The notes beneath the pieces are model-generated. The model did no database searches, was not told the origin of the DNA, and saw only the letters and a program-made list of their open reading frames with translations. Source: Sinomonas mesophila (lineage in GTDB: Bacteria; Actinomycetota; Actinomycetes; Actinomycetales; Micrococcaceae). From it: DNA of 64,000 nucleotides. Where the stretch lies: assembly GCF_001999765.1 (NCBI RefSeq), contig NZ_KV908323.1, positions 128,585 to 192,584 on the forward strand. The letters run 5' to 3'. The stretch's first letter is position 1. Each line of letters starts with the position of its first letter. The position numbers and the translations under genes are program-made. Below, piece by piece: positions 8,237 to 62,324 of this stretch.

Positions 8237-8689
8237 CTAAGGGTGTGGATGCTCGGCGAGGTACTCGGCGAGGCTCTCGAGGTTGGCACGGACGGTGCGG
8301 GCCTGCACCTTCTCCACGAGCGGGTCCCCGATGCGCCCGAAGATGCCGCCGAGCCCCGAGGCCGCCTCGATCCGCTGTGTCAGCCGTGTTCCGCCGTCCT
8401 CCGCCTCGCAGGTCATCGACACGGTGAAGTCCAGCTTCCCCTCCACGGATTTGGAGGTGGATCTCCGCGGCGGATCGTGCTCGACGATCTCTGCCGTCCA
8501 GTCGAAGCTCCGGCCCAGGACCTTGCTCGTGCCCCGGAAACGGGTGCCGACGCCCACGGGGCCGCCCCCGATGAGCTCCGTGTGGATCACCGACGAGTCG
8601 AACATGGGGATGTTCTCGGGATTGCTGACGACGTCGAAAACCTCCTGCGGCGGACGGGAAATGGAGACGCTCTCTTCGATCTCAGGCAC
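8237..8689 (-). CDS. SRPBCC/polyketide cyclase-like ligand-binding protein
   Basis: Starting at the GTG of MPEIEESVSI the product is 150 residues with the START/Bet v1-type helix-grip pattern: an opening strand (VSISRPPQEVFDVVSNPENIPMF split by the first helix), a central sheet, and a long C-terminal helix ending RANLESLAEYLAEH. Members bind hydrophobic ligands or act as cyclases; no ligand can be named. A longer reading from ATG 8704 is rejected because its second and third codons are themselves a perfect AGGAGG, correctly spaced (7 nt) from the GTG. Confidence 0.75.
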   Translation of the reverse strand: MPEIEESVSISRPPQEVFDVVSNPENIPMFDSSVIHTELIGGGPVGVGTRFRGTSKVLGRSFDWTAEIVEHDPPRRSTSKSVEGKLDFTVSMTCEAEDGGTRLTQRIEAASGLGGIFGRIGDPLVEKVQARTVRANLESLAEYLAEHPHP

Positions 8690-38260: not shown

Positions 38261-39194
38261 TGGCCGCCCCAGGTCCTTCGGCGCCGTGCTCTGGCGCCGG
38301 TTCCGTCTCCCCGGCCGGCTCCGTCTCCCGCGTCTTCTCCACCGTGACGCTCCGCAGGTGCTCGCGCATGAAGGCGGCGGCGGCCTCGTTGTGGCCGGCC
38401 AGCAGCAGGTCGATCAGCTGGACGTGCTCGCGGCACCGGACGAGGGCGCGCTCGCGGGGGAGGGACTTCTTGTACTCGATGAGACGGCGGAGCCGGTCCA
38501 CCCTGCGGAGGCCCTCCGACAGGAACGCATTGTTGGAGCACTCCATGATCGCCTCATGCAGGGCCGTGTTGGAGTCGAACAGCGCGGCGTTCGAGACGTC
38601 CCAGATGTCGCCGTCGATCAGCCGCTGCTGGTCCTCGCGGCACCTCTGCAGCGCCTCGACGTTGAGCACGAACGTCGGCTCGAGGATCGCCGCCGGCTCG
38701 ATGACGAGCCGGAACCGGTAGCTGTCGCGGTACTTCGCGAGCGAGTCGAGGATGGGCAGGAACTCCCAGCCGTAGCCCGGGGTGCGGTCGATCCAGCCCT
38801 CGGCGGACATCCGCCGGAGCGTCTCGCCCAGTTCCGTCCGGGTGAACCCGTACCTGCGCAGGAGGTAGTTCTCCGTGACCCGGTCGGGGAGCCGGCCCTC
38901 GAGGCGGTCGGCCGCGACCTGGTAGTAGCGCTCGTCGGTGGACGGCTCCCTCTGGACCGGCGGAGCCTCCGGAAGCCGGGCGACGACGTAGCCGCCCCGA
39001 TCGGCCTTGCGGACCACGCCCTCGGCCTCGAGGATCCGGAGCGCCTCGCGCACGGGAGAACGGGAGACCTTGAAGTGCTCGCCGAGCGTCCGCTCGACCA
39101 GCCGCGCGCCCTCGGGCTGCCCGGTCGCCACGACGTACCTGACGATCTCGGACGCGACCGAGGCCACGAGGGGCGACGGTTCGGCGAGAGGCAT
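38229..39194 (-). CDS. GntR-family regulator with two winged-helix segments and an FCD domain
   Basis: The 321-residue product begins with a GntR winged helix (GEHFKVSRSPVREALRILEAEGVV, about 38-61). A second winged-helix-like segment follows (LLRRYGFTRTELGETLRRMSAEGWIDR, about 110-136), and then an all-helical FCD domain (about 150-290) with the metal-ligand pattern around NTALHEAIME and RCREHVQLIDLL. The tail is Pro/Glu-rich. Ordinary FadR-type regulators are about 230-250 residues with a single HTH. The divergent neighbour is a decayed M20 amidohydrolase, so the original target may be lost. Confidence 0.85.
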   Translation of the reverse strand: MPLAEPSPLVASVASEIVRYVVATGQPEGARLVERTLGEHFKVSRSPVREALRILEAEGVVRKADRGGYVVARLPEAPPVQREPSTDERYYQVAADRLEGRLPDRVTENYLLRRYGFTRTELGETLRRMSAEGWIDRTPGYGWEFLPILDSLAKYRDSYRFRLVIEPAAILEPTFVLNVEALQRCREDQQRLIDGDIWDVSNAALFDSNTALHEAIMECSNNAFLSEGLRRVDRLRRLIEYKKSLPRERALVRCREHVQLIDLLLAGHNEAAAAFMREHLRSVTVEKTRETEPAGETEPAPEHGAEGPGAAISAGGTSPRR

Positions 39195-39289
39195 CCGACG
39201 TCCTTCCGAGAGCCAGACCAGAGGTGTATTCCTGTCTCAAAATACCAAAAGGTGAGCCGGGCGGGGCTGCTATCCGGCGGCGGTCCTCG

Positions 39290-39500
39290 ATGTGCAGCTC
39301 CGTCGACAAGGTGCTCACCGACCGCGTGCTCGACTCGCTGCCCGGCGCCCGTGCTCGACCCGGGCGCCGGGCACGACGCAGGAGTCCTGGCGGCCTACCT
39401 GCCCACGGCGTCCCACTCGCCCGAGGAGCACCTCGTGGACGAGGATGCGGAGGTCGGCGCCGCGGCGCTCGCGGACGCGCTGGGGCCGCTGCTGGGCTGA
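39290..39500 (+). pseudogene. Relic of an M20-type amidohydrolase (AllC/HyuC-like C-terminus)
   Basis: The frame ending at 39500 reads DPGAGHDAGVLAAYLPTA directly followed by SHSPEEHLVDEDAEVGAAAL. M20 carbamoylases have PSGAGHDA..PTAMIFVP..GGISHSPEE, so the zinc-site GAGHDA and SHSPEE motifs are present but the strand between them is deleted. Upstream, in a different frame, SVDKVLTDRVLDSLPGA fits the preceding helix, giving a frameshift near 39345. Only about 70 residues' worth of a roughly 410-residue gene remains. It is divergent from the FCD regulator. Confidence 0.65.
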
Positions 39501-39824
39501 CTCTCCTCCAGATGCGGGGTCACCTCCCAACGTTGCGGGGTCATGTCCCTACGTTGCGGGGTCATCCCCCTGCAATGCGGTTGCGTAGGAGCGAGCGCCC
39601 TCGTGATGCTCACGTGAAGATGAGGGCGCCGACGACGGCGGGCGAGTCGGCCGGGACGGCCGAGTGGCGCGGTCGTGCGCCCCGGAGCGCAGGGGGCTCG
39701 TCCCGCTGCAACAGTGACCCCGCATCGTTGGGAGGTGACTCCGCATCGTTGGGAGGTGACTCCGCATCGTTGGGAGGTGACCCCGCAACGTTGGGAGGTG
39801 ACCCCGCAACGTTGGGAGGCGTGC
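39501..39824. repeat. Array A of 21-bp repeats in two opposed arms
   Basis: Left arm: 21-bp units at 39511-39531, 39532-39552 and 39553-39573 plus partial ends, core GCGGGGTCACCTC. Right arm: the reverse complement repeated at 39727-39747, 39748-39768, 39769-39789 and 39790-39810 plus partial ends. About 140 bp of unrelated sequence lies between them. Each unit is itself nearly palindromic (GTTG ... CAAC around GGTCACC). The right arm stops a few bases from the LCP gene's stop codon. No gene is supported inside. Apparent proteins such as those containing MRGHLPTLRG are translations of the repeat. Confidence 0.9.
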
Positions 39825-39827
39825 CTC

Positions 39828-40979
39828 CTAGTTCCCGTCCTCCAGCCCGTTCGCCTGGACGAACTGGGGCACAGTCCCCTCAGCCATTGCGGCGGCGAGG
39901 GCGTTCGTCGAGACGCCGTCGAGGAGCACGATGGACTGCCCGTCCGCGGACGTCCCGATCCCGCCCGTGGGGAGCGTGAAGCTGACCAGCTCGGAGGGCC
40001 GCACGTCGCGCAGCTCGAAGGCCAGCTGCGCGAGCGTGCGCGAGTCGAAGCCCTGATCCACGGCGAGGTACGGGGAGAAGCCGTCCACGAGCTTGGCCAG
40101 CATCACCGGGTTGGCCAGCACGCTAGGCTGCGCCACCTTGCCGAGCACCGCCTTCACGAACGCCTGCTGGTTCCGCACCCGCTGGTAGTCCCCGTCCGGG
40201 AAGGCATAGCGCTCGCGCACGAACGCCAGCGCCGTCTCCCCGTCCATGGCCTGGGTCCCGGCCTCGAAGCGCTGGCCCTCGAGGATGCTCGAGGTGAACG
40301 GCGCCGGCACATCGAGGGTCACGCCGCCGATCGCATCCGTGAGCACCTCGAACCCGGCGAAGTCCACGAGCGTGACGTGGTCGATCCGCTGCTTGAGCAG
40401 GGACTCGAGCGTCTGCACGAGCAGCGGCACGCCGCCGGACGCGAGGGACGCGTTGATCTTCGCCTGGCCGTGTCCCGGGATGGTCACCCAGAGGTCCCGC
40501 ATCACCGAGATGAGGTACGCGCCCTGCCGGTCCGCCGGGATGTGCAGGAGCATCATCGTGTCCGAGCGCTGGTCGGACGGCTCGCCCGCGCCGGCCTGCG
40601 GCCGGCCGGACGTGTCGCGGCTGTCGCTGCCGACGAGGAGGATATTCACTGCCGCGCCGGACGACGCCGGCCGCGCGCCGCCGTCGTCCGCCGGGCCGTC
40701 CGCGGGGGCGGGGGCGGCGCCGCCGGGCGAGGGCGCGGCGCCAGCGGACCCGCCCGGCTGTTGCTTGGGCGGGCGGGTGGACCCGTCCGGGAAGGCCTGC
40801 TCGATCTTCTCGGTCTGGGCGTCGAAGCGGCTGCCCGCGTACCCGAGGTAGCCGACGACGGCCACGAGCGCGAGCAGGATGGCGAGGACGACGGCGCGCG
40901 CCGCCCTGAGCGCACGGCGTCGCCGGGGTCGCTGTCCCCCGGGCCGGTCGTCGAGCAGGGCGGAGGCTCGCTGGGGCAT
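39828..40979 (-). CDS. LytR-CpsA-Psr (LCP) family cell-wall glycopolymer transferase
   Basis: The 383-residue product has a short basic cytosolic tail, one membrane helix (ALRAARAVVLAILLALVAVVG split near 25-45), a Pro/Gly/Ala-rich linker (about 65-110) and an extracellular LCP domain (about 110-370). Hallmarks are NILLVGSDSR, RSDTMMLLHI, ISVMRDLWVTIPG..KINASLA and the late RVRNQQAF. LCP enzymes move teichoic-acid-like or arabinogalactan-type polymers from lipid carriers to peptidoglycan. The start is the ATG at 40979. Array A abuts its 3' end. Confidence 0.92.
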   Translation of the reverse strand: MPQRASALLDDRPGGQRPRRRRALRAARAVVLAILLALVAVVGYLGYAGSRFDAQTEKIEQAFPDGSTRPPKQQPGGSAGAAPSPGGAAPAPADGPADDGGARPASSGAAVNILLVGSDSRDTSGRPQAGAGEPSDQRSDTMMLLHIPADRQGAYLISVMRDLWVTIPGHGQAKINASLASGGVPLLVQTLESLLKQRIDHVTLVDFAGFEVLTDAIGGVTLDVPAPFTSSILEGQRFEAGTQAMDGETALAFVRERYAFPDGDYQRVRNQQAFVKAVLGKVAQPSVLANPVMLAKLVDGFSPYLAVDQGFDSRTLAQLAFELRDVRPSELVSFTLPTGGIGTSADGQSIVLLDGVSTNALAAAMAEGTVPQFVQANGLEDGN

Positions 40980-41323: not shown

Positions 41324-42259
41324 ATGAGTGATGCCGAGGTCCGCTGGCCGGGCCAGAACCAGTGGTGGGTCAGGGAGAACCTGAGGGAGGCGATCGACGA
41401 TCTCGTTGATCGTGGCTACACCGTTAGGGGCGGCCAGGGGGAAGACCCCGAACTCATCGACCCGCTGGGCTCGGCGGTCGAGACCTGGCGGGAGGACTTC
41501 CCCTATGACGAGCGGATGACCCGCGAGGAGTACGAGCTGGAGAAGTACCGGCTCCAGGTCGAGTTGCTCAAGTTCCAGTACTGGGGCCAGGACCATGGCC
41601 TCAGGCAGGTCATCGTCTTCGAGGGCCGCGATGCCGCCGGCAAGGGCGGGACCATCAAGCGGTTCACGGAGCACCTGAATCCGCGCTCCGCACGGGCGGT
41701 CGCGCTGGGCACCCCCTCCGACAGGGAGCATGGGCAGTGGTACTTCCAGCGCTACGTCCAGCACCTGCCCACCTCGGGGGAGATCGTGATGTTCGACCGC
41801 TCCTGGTACAACCGGGCGAACGTCGAGCGCGTCATGGGATTCTGCACGGACGAGGAGTACGAGACCTTCATGCGGCAGGCCCCCGAGTTCGAGAAGATGC
41901 TCGTCGACTCGGGGATCCACCTGACCAAGTTCTGGTTCTCGGTGACCCGCCACGAGCAGCGGACCCGCTTCGCCATCCGGCAGATCGATCCGGTCCGGCG
42001 TTGGAAGCTCTCGCCCATGGACCTGGCATCCCTGGACCGGTGGGAGGACTACACGAGGGCCAAGGAGGCCACCTTCCTCCGCACCGACACTGATCACTCC
42101 CCCTGGATCACGGTCAAGTCGAACGACAAGAAGCGCGGGCGGATCAACGCCATGCGGTACTTCCTGCACCAATTCGACTACGAGGGCAAGGACCCCGGGG
42201 TCGTCTACGAACCAGACCCGCTGATCGTCCGCCGCGCCCGGCACGCCATCGGCGACTGA
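41324..42259 (+). CDS. ppk2: Polyphosphate kinase 2 (PPK2 family)
   Basis: The 311-residue protein has a Walker A loop VFEGRDAAGKGGTIKRF, lid region TPSDREHGQWYFQRY, the Walker B Asp in MFDRSWYNRANVERVMGF and the conserved PEFEKMLVDSGIHLTKFWFSV. PPK2 enzymes phosphorylate nucleoside di- or monophosphates with polyphosphate. A class I single-domain form is suggested by length. The ATG at 41324 follows GAAGG closely; a GTG at 41313 with GGGAG is out of this frame. A CHAD-domain protein, likely polyphosphate-binding, is encoded 6 kb away. The last codons are caught in an 18-bp tandem repeat. Confidence 0.93.
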   Translation: MSDAEVRWPGQNQWWVRENLREAIDDLVDRGYTVRGGQGEDPELIDPLGSAVETWREDFPYDERMTREEYELEKYRLQVELLKFQYWGQDHGLRQVIVFEGRDAAGKGGTIKRFTEHLNPRSARAVALGTPSDREHGQWYFQRYVQHLPTSGEIVMFDRSWYNRANVERVMGFCTDEEYETFMRQAPEFEKMLVDSGIHLTKFWFSVTRHEQRTRFAIRQIDPVRRWKLSPMDLASLDRWEDYTRAKEATFLRTDTDHSPWITVKSNDKKRGRINAMRYFLHQFDYEGKDPGVVYEPDPLIVRRARHAIGD

Positions 42260-42297
42260 CGCGCCATCGGCGACTGACGCGCCATCGGCGACTGAAC
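42244..42297. repeat. Three tandem 18-bp repeats across the PPK2 stop codon
   Basis: CGCCATCGGCGACTGACG occurs at 42244-42261 and 42262-42279 exactly, and at 42280-42297 with only the last two bases changed. The first copy contains the PPK2 stop, so each further copy repeats an in-frame TGA and leaves the protein unchanged. Confidence 0.95.
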
Positions 42298-59370: not shown

Positions 59371-59979
59371 GTGGCCCCACGTGAGACAGTGGTCTACATG
59401 CCGGACCGTGAGCGCGGGACCCATGCCTCGGCACCCGACCTCGACGAGCTCATGGCCCGCGTGGCGCGGGGGGACCATGCCGCCTTCGGGCACCTCTACG
59501 ACGCACTCGCCCCGCTCGTGCACGGGCTCGTGCTGCGGGTGGTCCGCGACCGGGCGCAGAGCGAGGAGGTCACCCAGGAGGTCTTTCTCGAGGTGTGGCA
59601 GCAGGCCCGGAGGTTCGACGCCGACCGCGGCCGCGCCCGCGCCTGGATCACCGTCATGGCGCACCGCCGGGCCGTTGACCGGGTCCGGGCCGCTCAGGCC
59701 GCGGCCGACAGGGACCTGCGCGAGGGCATCAAGGAGTTCCAGGAGAGCTACGACGACGTCGAGGACCGTGTCGAGGTGGCACTCGAGAGCGAGCGGGTCA
59801 GCCGGGCCCTGGACTCGCTCACGGACGTCCAGCGGCAGGCCATCCGGCTGGCCTACTACGGCGGCTACACCTACGGGGAGGTCGCCGACGCCCTGGGGCT
59901 TCCCCTGGGCACCGTGAAGACGAGGATCCGCGACGGGATGATCCGCCTGAGGGACGTGTTGGGAGTGAGCCATGGATGA
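59371..59979 (+). CDS. sigK: ECF RNA polymerase sigma factor SigK-type
   Basis: The product has a region 2 (DHAAFGHLYDALAPLVHGLVLRV, EEVTQEVFLEVWQQARRFDADRGRARAWI) and region 4 (LTDVQRQAIRLAYYGGYTYGEVADALGLPLGTVKTRIRDGMIRLRD) that resemble mycobacterial SigK closely, including AHRRAVDRVR. It is held by the anti-sigma factor RskA encoded immediately downstream (8-bp overlap). The GTG at 59371 has GGAGA at 5 nt; an ATG at 59398 is also in frame and would give 193 residues. Confidence 0.92.
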   Translation: MAPRETVVYMPDRERGTHASAPDLDELMARVARGDHAAFGHLYDALAPLVHGLVLRVVRDRAQSEEVTQEVFLEVWQQARRFDADRGRARAWITVMAHRRAVDRVRAAQAAADRDLREGIKEFQESYDDVEDRVEVALESERVSRALDSLTDVQRQAIRLAYYGGYTYGEVADALGLPLGTVKTRIRDGMIRLRDVLGVSHG

Positions 59980-60790
59980 TCAGCTGCATCTGCTGACCGG
60001 CGCCTACGCCCTCAATGCGCTCGACGACGACGAGCGCGCCCGCTTCGAGGGCTCGCTCGCGTACGGGCACCCGACCGCGCAGGAGGCGCGCGAGCTCGCC
60101 GAGACCGCGGCCCTGCTCGCGTCCGGGGCGACGCCCAAGGTCCCGCCCTCGGACCTCAAGGCCCGGCTCATGTCCCAGATCGAGGGGACCCCCCAGTTCG
60201 AGGCTGGGCCACGCCTCAGCAACGCGGGGTCACCTCTCAGCGATGCGGGGTCACCTCCTGCGCGCGCCGACCTCAGGGCCGTTCCCCCCGCCCACGCCCC
60301 GCGGCTCGCGCGCCCGGCCCGGTGGCTCCCCGCCGCGGCGGCAGTCCTGCTCGCCGCCGCGCTCGGCGCCGGGACGTGGGGCCTCCGCGCCCAGCAGGAG
60401 CGCGACGACGCCCTCCGCCAGCTCGCCGCGGCGCAGGGCGCCCCGAGCGCCGTCATGGGCAGGATCCTGGCCGCCCCGGACGCCAGGCTCCGGGAGGCCA
60501 CGCGGCCCGAGGGCGGGACCCTCCTCATCGCGCACTCGCGGCAGGACTCGCTCGCGGGCGTCATGACGCTCGGCCTGCCCGCGCCTGGCGAGGGCAAGGT
60601 CTACGAGCTGTGGCTCATCGACGCCGCGGGGAACGCGACGCCCGCAGGCCTGATTGTCGGGGACGGCACCACGTGGAACGAGCTCACGGGAGGCGTGGGC
60701 GCGGCGTCGTACCTCGGGGTCACGGTCGAGCCAGCGGGCGGCTCGCCGCACCCGACGACCAAGCCGGTCATGCTTGAATCCATCCCGTGA
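59972..60790 (+). CDS. rskA: Anti-sigma K factor RskA with an in-frame repeat insertion
   Basis: The 272-residue protein has an N-terminal anti-sigma zinc-less domain (LTGAYALNALDDDERARFEGSLA, about 6-60), one membrane helix (WLPAAAAVLLAAALGAGTWG, about 118-137) and an extracytoplasmic RskA domain (about 150-270; GKVYELWLIDAAGNATPAGLIVGDG). It sequesters SigK and is released by regulated cleavage. In the linker before the helix, 42 bp of 21-bp repeats add two 7-residue units, NAGSPLS and DAGSPPA. It overlaps sigK by 8 bp. Confidence 0.92.
   Translation: MDDQLHLLTGAYALNALDDDERARFEGSLAYGHPTAQEARELAETAALLASGATPKVPPSDLKARLMSQIEGTPQFEAGPRLSNAGSPLSDAGSPPARADLRAVPPAHAPRLARPARWLPAAAAVLLAAALGAGTWGLRAQQERDDALRQLAAAQGAPSAVMGRILAAPDARLREATRPEGGTLLIAHSRQDSLAGVMTLGLPAPGEGKVYELWLIDAAGNATPAGLIVGDGTTWNELTGGVGAASYLGVTVEPAGGSPHPTTKPVMLESIP
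60221..60262. repeat. Array B: two 21-bp repeats inside rskA
   Basis: Units at 60221-60241 and 60242-60262 share the core GCGGGGTCACCTC with arrays A and C. A partial unit end precedes them. Because 21 is divisible by three the insertion keeps the reading frame and lies in a flexible linker. Confidence 0.88.
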
Positions 60791-62103: not shown

Positions 62104-62148
62104 CCCTCCAGTCTAAAGTTCCTCCCAGTCCGAGCTCGTCACTCCCAA

Positions 62149-62324
62149 GATGCGAGGTCACCTCTCAACGTCCCGGGGTCACCTCGCAAGGTTGCGGGGT
62201 CACCTCTCAACGATGCAGGGCCAATGTCAGTTCAATGACTCCGCAACGCAGGGAGGTGACCCCGGAACGTAGGGACGTGACCCCGCATCGCTGGGAAGTG
62301 ACCCCGCAAAATTGGGACGTGGCG
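62149..62324. repeat. Array C of 21-bp repeats in two opposed arms
   Basis: Left arm: units 62149-62169, 62170-62190 and 62191-62211 plus a decayed fourth, core GCGGGGTCACCTC. Right arm in the opposite orientation: 62248-62268, 62269-62289 and 62290-62310 plus partial ends. The units are more diverged than in array A and the arms meet within about 25 bp. The array fills most of the gap between divergent trpF and the FCD regulator gene. No gene is supported inside. Confidence 0.9.

Follow-up and report, generated by a model that had tools for sequence, protein, structure and literature searches.

Interspersed extragenic repeats are well described in Proteobacteria (PMC3733652). That paper reports that most conv-REPs of two genomes lie no more than 20 bp from either stop codon, and that some REP copies occur inside genes. 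The repeat arrays of Sinomonas resemble REP, BIME, and REPIN elements, as characterized in PMC3733652 and PMC3116915, in their high copy number, extragenic position, opposed orientation, hairpin potential, and preference for convergent gaps and 3′ ends. The REP unit is a palindromic hairpin of 20-40 bp with a GTAG or CGTC tag, whereas the Sinomonas unit is neither such a hairpin nor so tagged, and stands in tandem at 21 bp. Bacterial MITEs, BOX elements, and Rickettsia palindromic elements (RPEs) are also small and dispersed, and RPEs occur in frame within genes as well, both according to PMC10969869; the Sinomonas arrays differ in that no target duplication and, among the elements inspected, no related insertion sequence was found, and in that the number of units per arm varies.

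The ends of IS481-family elements from the same genus offer a further likeness, with short tandem units at one or both ends that are opposed between the ends, but their steps are 23-26 bp or irregular, their words are different, each end has about 2-4 units, and a transposase is present. In eukaryotic rDNA, transcribed by Pol I, the Sal-box terminator arrays recognized by TTF-I place repeated protein-binding words just downstream of genes. With these the Sinomonas arrays may be said to share a gene-end niche of repeated words, by analogy only.

The window analysed here is a stretch of 64,000 nucleotides from Sinomonas mesophila, and its 21-bp arrays and the features beside them are as follows.

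39351-39500, plus strand: short predicted open reading frame, called a relic gene in the original prediction, ending next to the left arm; no Pfam match
39511-39580, minus strand: left arm, with an outer half-unit, two full 21-bp units, and one decayed unit
39581-39713, no strand: unit-free centre of 133 bp separating the two arms
39714-39819, plus strand: right arm, with five full 21-bp units (TRF, 5.0 copies, 96% matches)
39828-40979, minus strand: LytR-CpsA-Psr (LCP) gene (Pfam PF03816), its stop codon 8 bp from the right arm
60212-60253, minus strand: one-armed array of two units, in frame in an RskA-type anti-sigma gene (59972-60790)
62140-62223, minus strand: left arm of a second two-armed array, four units
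62224-62235, no strand: centre of the second two-armed array, 12 bp
62236-62319, plus strand: right arm of the second two-armed array, four units

In plus orientation the 21-bp unit reads TGACCCCGCAACGTTGGGAGG, and the arms at 39511-39819 point outward from each other. In the left arm the half-unit begins at 39513; the two full units occupy 39523-39543 and 39544-39564, and the decayed unit runs to about 39580. The full units of the right arm span 39715-39819, and the step is exactly 21 bp. The opposed arms and strict 21-bp spacing announced in the original prediction were thus recovered, with five units on the right where it had counted at least four; its description of each unit as nearly palindromic applies solely to variants that have CAACGTTG at the centre, and unit positions 13-15 vary across the family. 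On its own, a unit shows no more folding than shuffled sequence (z of +0.78, +0.56, -0.55, and -0.58 for four single strands), and two tandem units fold better than shuffles (z of -3.3 and -2.4). The window contains 14 units with at most three mismatches, compared with 0.01 expected from 100 dinucleotide-preserving shuffles. The second two-armed array (62140-62319) occupies an exceptional site, where a PRAI gene and a GntR/FCD gene diverge. The units stand head to tail without spacers, which agrees with the earlier statement that this is not a CRISPR, and a covariance-model search of 39100-40000 against Rfam gave no match up to an E value of 1. Elsewhere in the window, at 42244-42295, 2.9 exact copies of an 18-bp unit, CGCCATCGGCGACTGACG, lie at or just past the end of the open reading frame 41324-42259.

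Further copies, on which the original prediction depended, are plentiful: the genome (4.0 Mb, 47 contigs) holds 169 close units (84 + 85) with at most two mismatches to an 18-base core, and a reversed control pattern found none. Within 800 kb of contigs C2 and C3 (the first 400 kb of each), there are 128 matches scoring at least 12 against 2 in the reversed sequence, and 138 units make up 44 arms in 32 clusters. Nor are the arms an assembly artefact, as the repeat family also occurs in independent assemblies, including the single-contig G006 (R1AF57) and G011. Genomes listed under the genus match named Sinomonas records without a difference over kilobases, which places the genome in Sinomonas. 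A single-unit pattern drawn from the S. mesophila genome detects the 21-bp family in 8 of 15 genomes of the genus, and a looser two-unit pattern finds it in 9 of 295 genomes of the bacterial family and in 1 of 32 genera, namely Sinomonas, being absent from 6 of the 15 Sinomonas genomes. All 65 stretches found in a scan of 84,980 species carry Sinomonas in their titles, and of 396 genomes sampled from the order, a more general core occurs in 2, which are the only Sinomonas among them. Plasmids, phages, and viral contigs gave no convincing match in collections that may omit records of or near the S. mesophila genome; a plasmid search at E values up to 10 returned eight records with short matches, the best at an E value of 2. 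No description of these 21-bp arrays appears in the titles or abstract starts of the open-licence literature among the matches listed; one listed paper that mentions Sinomonas along with a repeat and a transposase is on another topic, judged by its title and the start of its abstract. The 21-bp family was seen only in Sinomonas in the collections searched.

The anatomy of the unit was described starting from an unweighted search with up to four mismatches. Positions TGACCCC are 92-99% constant and positions 11 and 13-15 are variable, a contrast that is less affected than the absolute levels, which are inflated because matches were picked by likeness. Neighbouring units are spaced by 21 bp in 91 of 94 steps, a figure slightly flattered by the retention of weak matches only where a neighbour lay at 20-22 bp. 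Across 52 arms, a half-unit lies beyond the last full unit at the outer end, matching at 0.73-0.87 over positions 1-8 and at 0.52-0.79 over positions 9-13 before dropping towards background, and arms stop outward after TGACCCCGC(A). The inner end is weaker, its GGGAGG positions matching at 0.42-0.62 in the same 52 arms. We would read an arm as a series of modules, GGGAGGTGACCCCGCA, joined by 5-bp linkers. Terminal inverted repeats are present in the form of opposed arms with the conserved outer half-unit. At 29 junctions of a minus arm with a plus arm, in a search limited to 60 bp, the arms are 0-57 bp apart, 10 of them by 12-15 bp; the centre of the first window element, at about 133 bp, is unusually long for the 21-bp family. 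Eighteen junctions of the plus-minus kind were listed, some of them doubtful.

Genes were predicted with a simple codon-pair model, giving 722 genes in the 800 kb, where 30 of 37 arms with at least two units are intergenic and 7 lie inside predicted genes. Mapped against these genes, as the original prediction had proposed, the arrays are enriched in convergent gaps and depleted in divergent ones. In S. mesophila, convergent gaps hold 19 of 30 intergenic arms and make up 118 of 587 gaps (Fisher P 7.5e-7). Among 65 loci from relatives, they hold 42 of 67 intergenic arms and make up 68 of 344 gaps (Fisher P 9e-12), where the gap counts include the array gaps, the loci were selected for holding a two-unit match, and 10 arms inside predicted genes and 4 at a locus edge had been dropped from 81. 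Divergent gaps hold 5 of 97 arms and make up 189 of 931 gaps (Fisher P 1e-4); all of these gap P-values are too small, since neither the units within an array nor the paired arms of an element count as independent observations. Twenty-three intergenic S. mesophila arms follow a gene in the expected sense, and 14 of them start within 20 bp of its stop codon. Tandem gaps contain arms in both orientations, in S. mesophila and in relatives alike, and an orientation-dependent roadblock is not supported in these gaps, the orientation of arms relative to the neighbouring gene not being fixed there.

Translated in frame, the array inside rskA gives a seven-residue repeat containing A/E-G-S; it is present in 9 of 15 genomes of the genus, the same nine that contain the two-unit pattern. 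The rskA units of R1AF57 are degenerate, and the array-free G012 has one unit-like word in its gene; the RskA linker of G012 (locus L226) carries a different, longer amino-acid repeat at the position of the array. Orthologues of rskA are 59-66% identical in protein, yet GGG-TCA for Gly-Ser is kept in the same frame. TCA accounts for 22 of 28 repeat serine codons over 12 of the 15 rskA loci, and for 22 of 26 in array-bearing genomes, against a background of 2.4% of 12,861 serine codons counted; the corresponding probability of 7e-31 is not literal, as the units of one array are related. Of the six exceptions, R1AF57 and S. notoginsengisoli contribute two each, and the array-free G007 and G001 one each. 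Three array-free loci (L219, L222, and L225) were left out of the codon count, the anchor word not being found; they yielded just the C-terminal part of the protein, and the absence of an array there rests on the DNA scan. Because the orthologues are only 59-66% identical in protein, silent sites should have drifted, and the retention of TCA therefore indicates that the word was kept, or re-copied, as DNA and not for the peptide. This points to conservation of the rskA array at the DNA level. When the contrast between unit positions is also considered, a word recognized by a protein is favoured over a repeat that is wholly neutral. The comparison suggests that a putative protein recognizes the 21-bp DNA word, which is kept even within a gene.

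The word itself has changed between species. At position 8, G is found in 95 of 110 units of S. mesophila and in 41 of 46 of ASV486, and T in 53 of 54 units of DS1015, 50 of 62 of DS1018, and 35 of 45 of S. notoginsengisoli, a species-wide shift that occurred although several array sites are common to species. One such site, beside a DUF559-like gene, is common to DS1015, DS1018, S. notoginsengisoli, and R1AF57, and arrays flank a similar gene on both sides in S. mesophila. The S. mesophila units at this locus show 4.84 differences from units elsewhere in the same genome, against 7.21, 7.12, and 6.46 from the same locus in DS1015, DS1018, and S. notoginsengisoli, respectively; the distances to other loci of these three species are 6.34, 6.87, and 6.41, so that the shared place adds no likeness in a comparison covering three species pairs. 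A shift of this kind at position 8 might also be produced by gene conversion among loci.

The sister genomes G010 and G011, 98% identical, have all four clusters of the 21-bp family in common in their aligned part (a fifth shared match is a 22-bp array, and a sixth G010 cluster lies outside the alignment), no empty site was seen in about 0.32 Mb aligned, and their arrays differ by whole units at fixed sites. Further 21-bp words in these two genomes, GGGTGAnnTCGGCG and GAGGTCACCCnGTGTGG, vary by 1, 3, or 5 whole units. The array beside the LCP gene was seen in S. mesophila alone, with no units within 700 bp after the gene in any of the twelve other genomes that have a close LCP homologue. Two further sites, located inside genes or at gene edges, have arrays in relatives and none in S. 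mesophila. Certain arrays of ASV486 and of DS1015/DS1018 are absent from S. mesophila, with junctions that are unclean at about 80% identity.

Alongside the 21-bp family, Sinomonas has other arrays of like build whose words are different, among them families with a step of 22 bp or 31 bp. These include 22-bp CCAGAGACCCCGCAACG arrays in ASV486, 22-bp GGCCACTC arrays in S. mesophila and G014, and 31-bp TCGGGTAC arrays in G014, a genome without the 21-bp family; further 21-bp words occur in ASV486 and G011. Located members are as follows.

G010, contig C1, 31312-31476 and 147693-147856, and locus L322 (G001), about 1287-1480 and 8246-8450: second two-armed family, 22-bp step, CCAGAGACCCCGCAACG or GGGACCCCGCAACGGGCCGCAC
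G000 (S. mesophila), contig C3, 331686-331835: third family, 22-bp step, GGCCACTCAACGCGCGAGAGGT-like
G014, contig C1, 237687-237854 and 356657-356919: third family, 22-bp step, GTGCCCACTCGTCGGGCGAGAA-like
G014, contig C1, 44017-44663, 108395-109029, 161358-161721, and 348014-348391: 31-bp arrays, TCGGGTACGCCAACTC or TCGGGTACAGAT, with opposed arms

The best reading of the 21-bp arrays, held tentatively and at a little less than an even chance, is that they are arrays of binding modules acting at gene ends. The arms would serve a putative sequence-specific DNA-binding protein, with a module of approximately GGGAnnTGACCCC(G/T)CA repeated every 21 bp, which is close to two helical turns; the repeats form either a single arm or an opposed pair. 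We infer that the protein would read the DNA word, that modules would be bound side by side on one DNA face, and that the complex would block or insulate transcription units converging at gene ends, or else serve as a topological anchor there. Judged from sequence comparison, the 21-bp step and the signs of DNA-level conservation fit protein binding on one face, but the sister families step by 22 or 31 bp. Since several families have their own words and steps, binding would require several proteins, and this coexistence weakens the argument from one protein and one step length. Counted in favour of binding modules are the constant as against variable unit positions, the retention of TCA in rskA, the shift at position 8, the outer half-unit ends, the convergent enrichment, and the divergent depletion; counted against them are the 6 of 15 genomes without the two-unit pattern, the variable orientation, the plus-then-minus arrangements, and the weaker inner end. 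A fuller version, in which phased 21-bp operator arrays mark gene ends through a genus-specific reader forming an orientation-tolerant roadblock or insulator, with word and reader co-evolving per species and several word-reader pairs in the genus, is doubtful as a whole.

The main rival is an origin from transposon ends, a possible but on balance unlikely reading, by which the arrays are non-autonomous MITE-like elements or worn transposon ends. On this view each arm would be a multi-site end belonging to an IS481/IS21-like element, and a DDE transposase, since lost or unrecognized, would have supplied movement in trans. In its favour are the two opposed arms with conserved outer half-units and the dispersal over dozens of sites, including the LCP-gene array without a counterpart in twelve other genomes and the two gene-internal or gene-edge sites that are array-free in S. 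mesophila and not in relatives. Elements of the genus with rve transposases also have tandem 23-26 bp units at one or both ends: L300 is assigned to IS481 by the cut-off (253.7 bits, cut-off 224) and has tandem units at both ends; L308 (G007) matches IS481 best, at 197.1 bits and below the cut-off, with tandem units at the one end looked at; and L325 (G005) is an unclassified rve element with 25-bp tandem ends on both sides that lies within an 18-bp array. The IS481-like elements of L308 (850-1080 and 2380-2410) and L325 (3680-5260), with end units of 25-26 bp, appear to be inserted in arrays of other families.

The end words of these elements are unlike the 21-bp unit, however, and S. mesophila, which has the most two-unit matches of the 15 genomes, has just three rve matches (two IS30, one unclassified), none of them over the IS481 (NF033577) or IS21 cut-off. 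The 133-bp centre is too short for an IS481 transposase. Among the 52 of 84 rve matches in the 15 genomes that were inspected, as places of 3 kb to 20 kb, some of them ended by contig ends, none has arms of the 21-bp family on both sides, and two (L294 and L332) have such an array on one side within about 1.5 kb; the kinds of transposase covered were rve and Y1. The tips of 24 two-armed elements show no direct repeats that would mark a target duplication (P 0.41), in a test where tips are not always sharp and old elements could have lost the duplication. The four clusters in common between sister genomes also speak against mobile ends, which moreover leave the in-frame retention of the DNA word in rskA unexplained. 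A mobile host gene between the arms (ArfB by eye, DUF559 just below cut-off) was rejected, as the arms at the DUF559-like locus are orthologous in several species. Binding arrays and transposon ends are compatible readings, given takeover of a transposon end.

The original prediction had offered REP/REPIN-type mobile repeats as a second reading. A search for the Y1 transposase (RAYT, PF01797) was negative in all 15 genomes of the genus and positive in 5 of 14 control genomes, the lone unit forms no hairpin, and a GTAG or CGTC end tag is absent by eye from the unit consensus, although the opposite strand of variants ending in ACG reads CGT where two units join. REP/REPIN identity is not supported; the genomic niche is nevertheless the REP one, since the Sinomonas arrays are extragenic and lie at 3′ ends and in convergent gaps.

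It is distinctly unlikely that the arrays are REP-like RNA elements whose opposed arms form a long hairpin ending or protecting convergent transcripts, as a bidirectional terminator. The window element does fold at -203.8 kcal/mol against -139.4 (sd 6.0) for shuffles (z -10.7), several minus-plus centres are near-perfect hairpins, and the frequent start of downstream arms within 20 bp of a stop codon matches what PMC3733652 describes for REPs. Minus-plus centres pair with their own partner at 3.96 of 6 bases against 3.30 for partners shuffled within species (P 0.002; n = 25, one from a 22-bp family), whereas plus-minus centres do not stand out (P 0.18, n = 11), and whole arms show no covariation, the cross-arm distance being 4.84 within the same element and 4.58 between different elements (P 0.89, 11 elements). 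Selection on an arm-arm hairpin was accordingly set aside for whole arms, the pairing data favouring it at minus-plus centres only. With the arrays masked, 5 of 11 array-bearing convergent gaps retain a fold of -25 kcal/mol or stronger, a blunt measure that 84% of coding windows also reach. A hairpin role is possible for two-armed elements; one-armed and gene-internal arrays are unable to form an arm-arm hairpin and are left unexplained by it.

Very improbable is a neutral origin, with tandem repeats grown by slippage, homogenized between loci by recombination, and tolerated at the ends of transcription units. Units within an arm are indeed most alike (3.17 differences, against about 4.6 between elements), and the whole-unit differences between sister genomes, in the 21-bp family and in other 21-bp families, also fit this reading, but the contrast of constant and variable positions, the spread over many sites, and the retention of TCA in rskA all stand against it. 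Mimicry of an anti-Shine-Dalgarno sequence, suggested by TCACCTCC in the S. mesophila unit, was rejected, the consensus of three relatives having GGGACA or GGGACG before TGACCCC.

The Sinomonas arrays form a tandem, two-armed family of extragenic repeats, found in a single actinobacterial genus in the collections searched and lacking, in its 15 genomes, the transposase to which the spread of REPs is attributed. The rare codon retained in rskA separates conservation at the DNA level from conservation at the protein level, and the shift at position 8 means that a repeat word can change genome-wide while several of its sites remain fixed. If the operator reading is true, these arrays would be a bacterial counterpart of the Sal-box terminator arrays.
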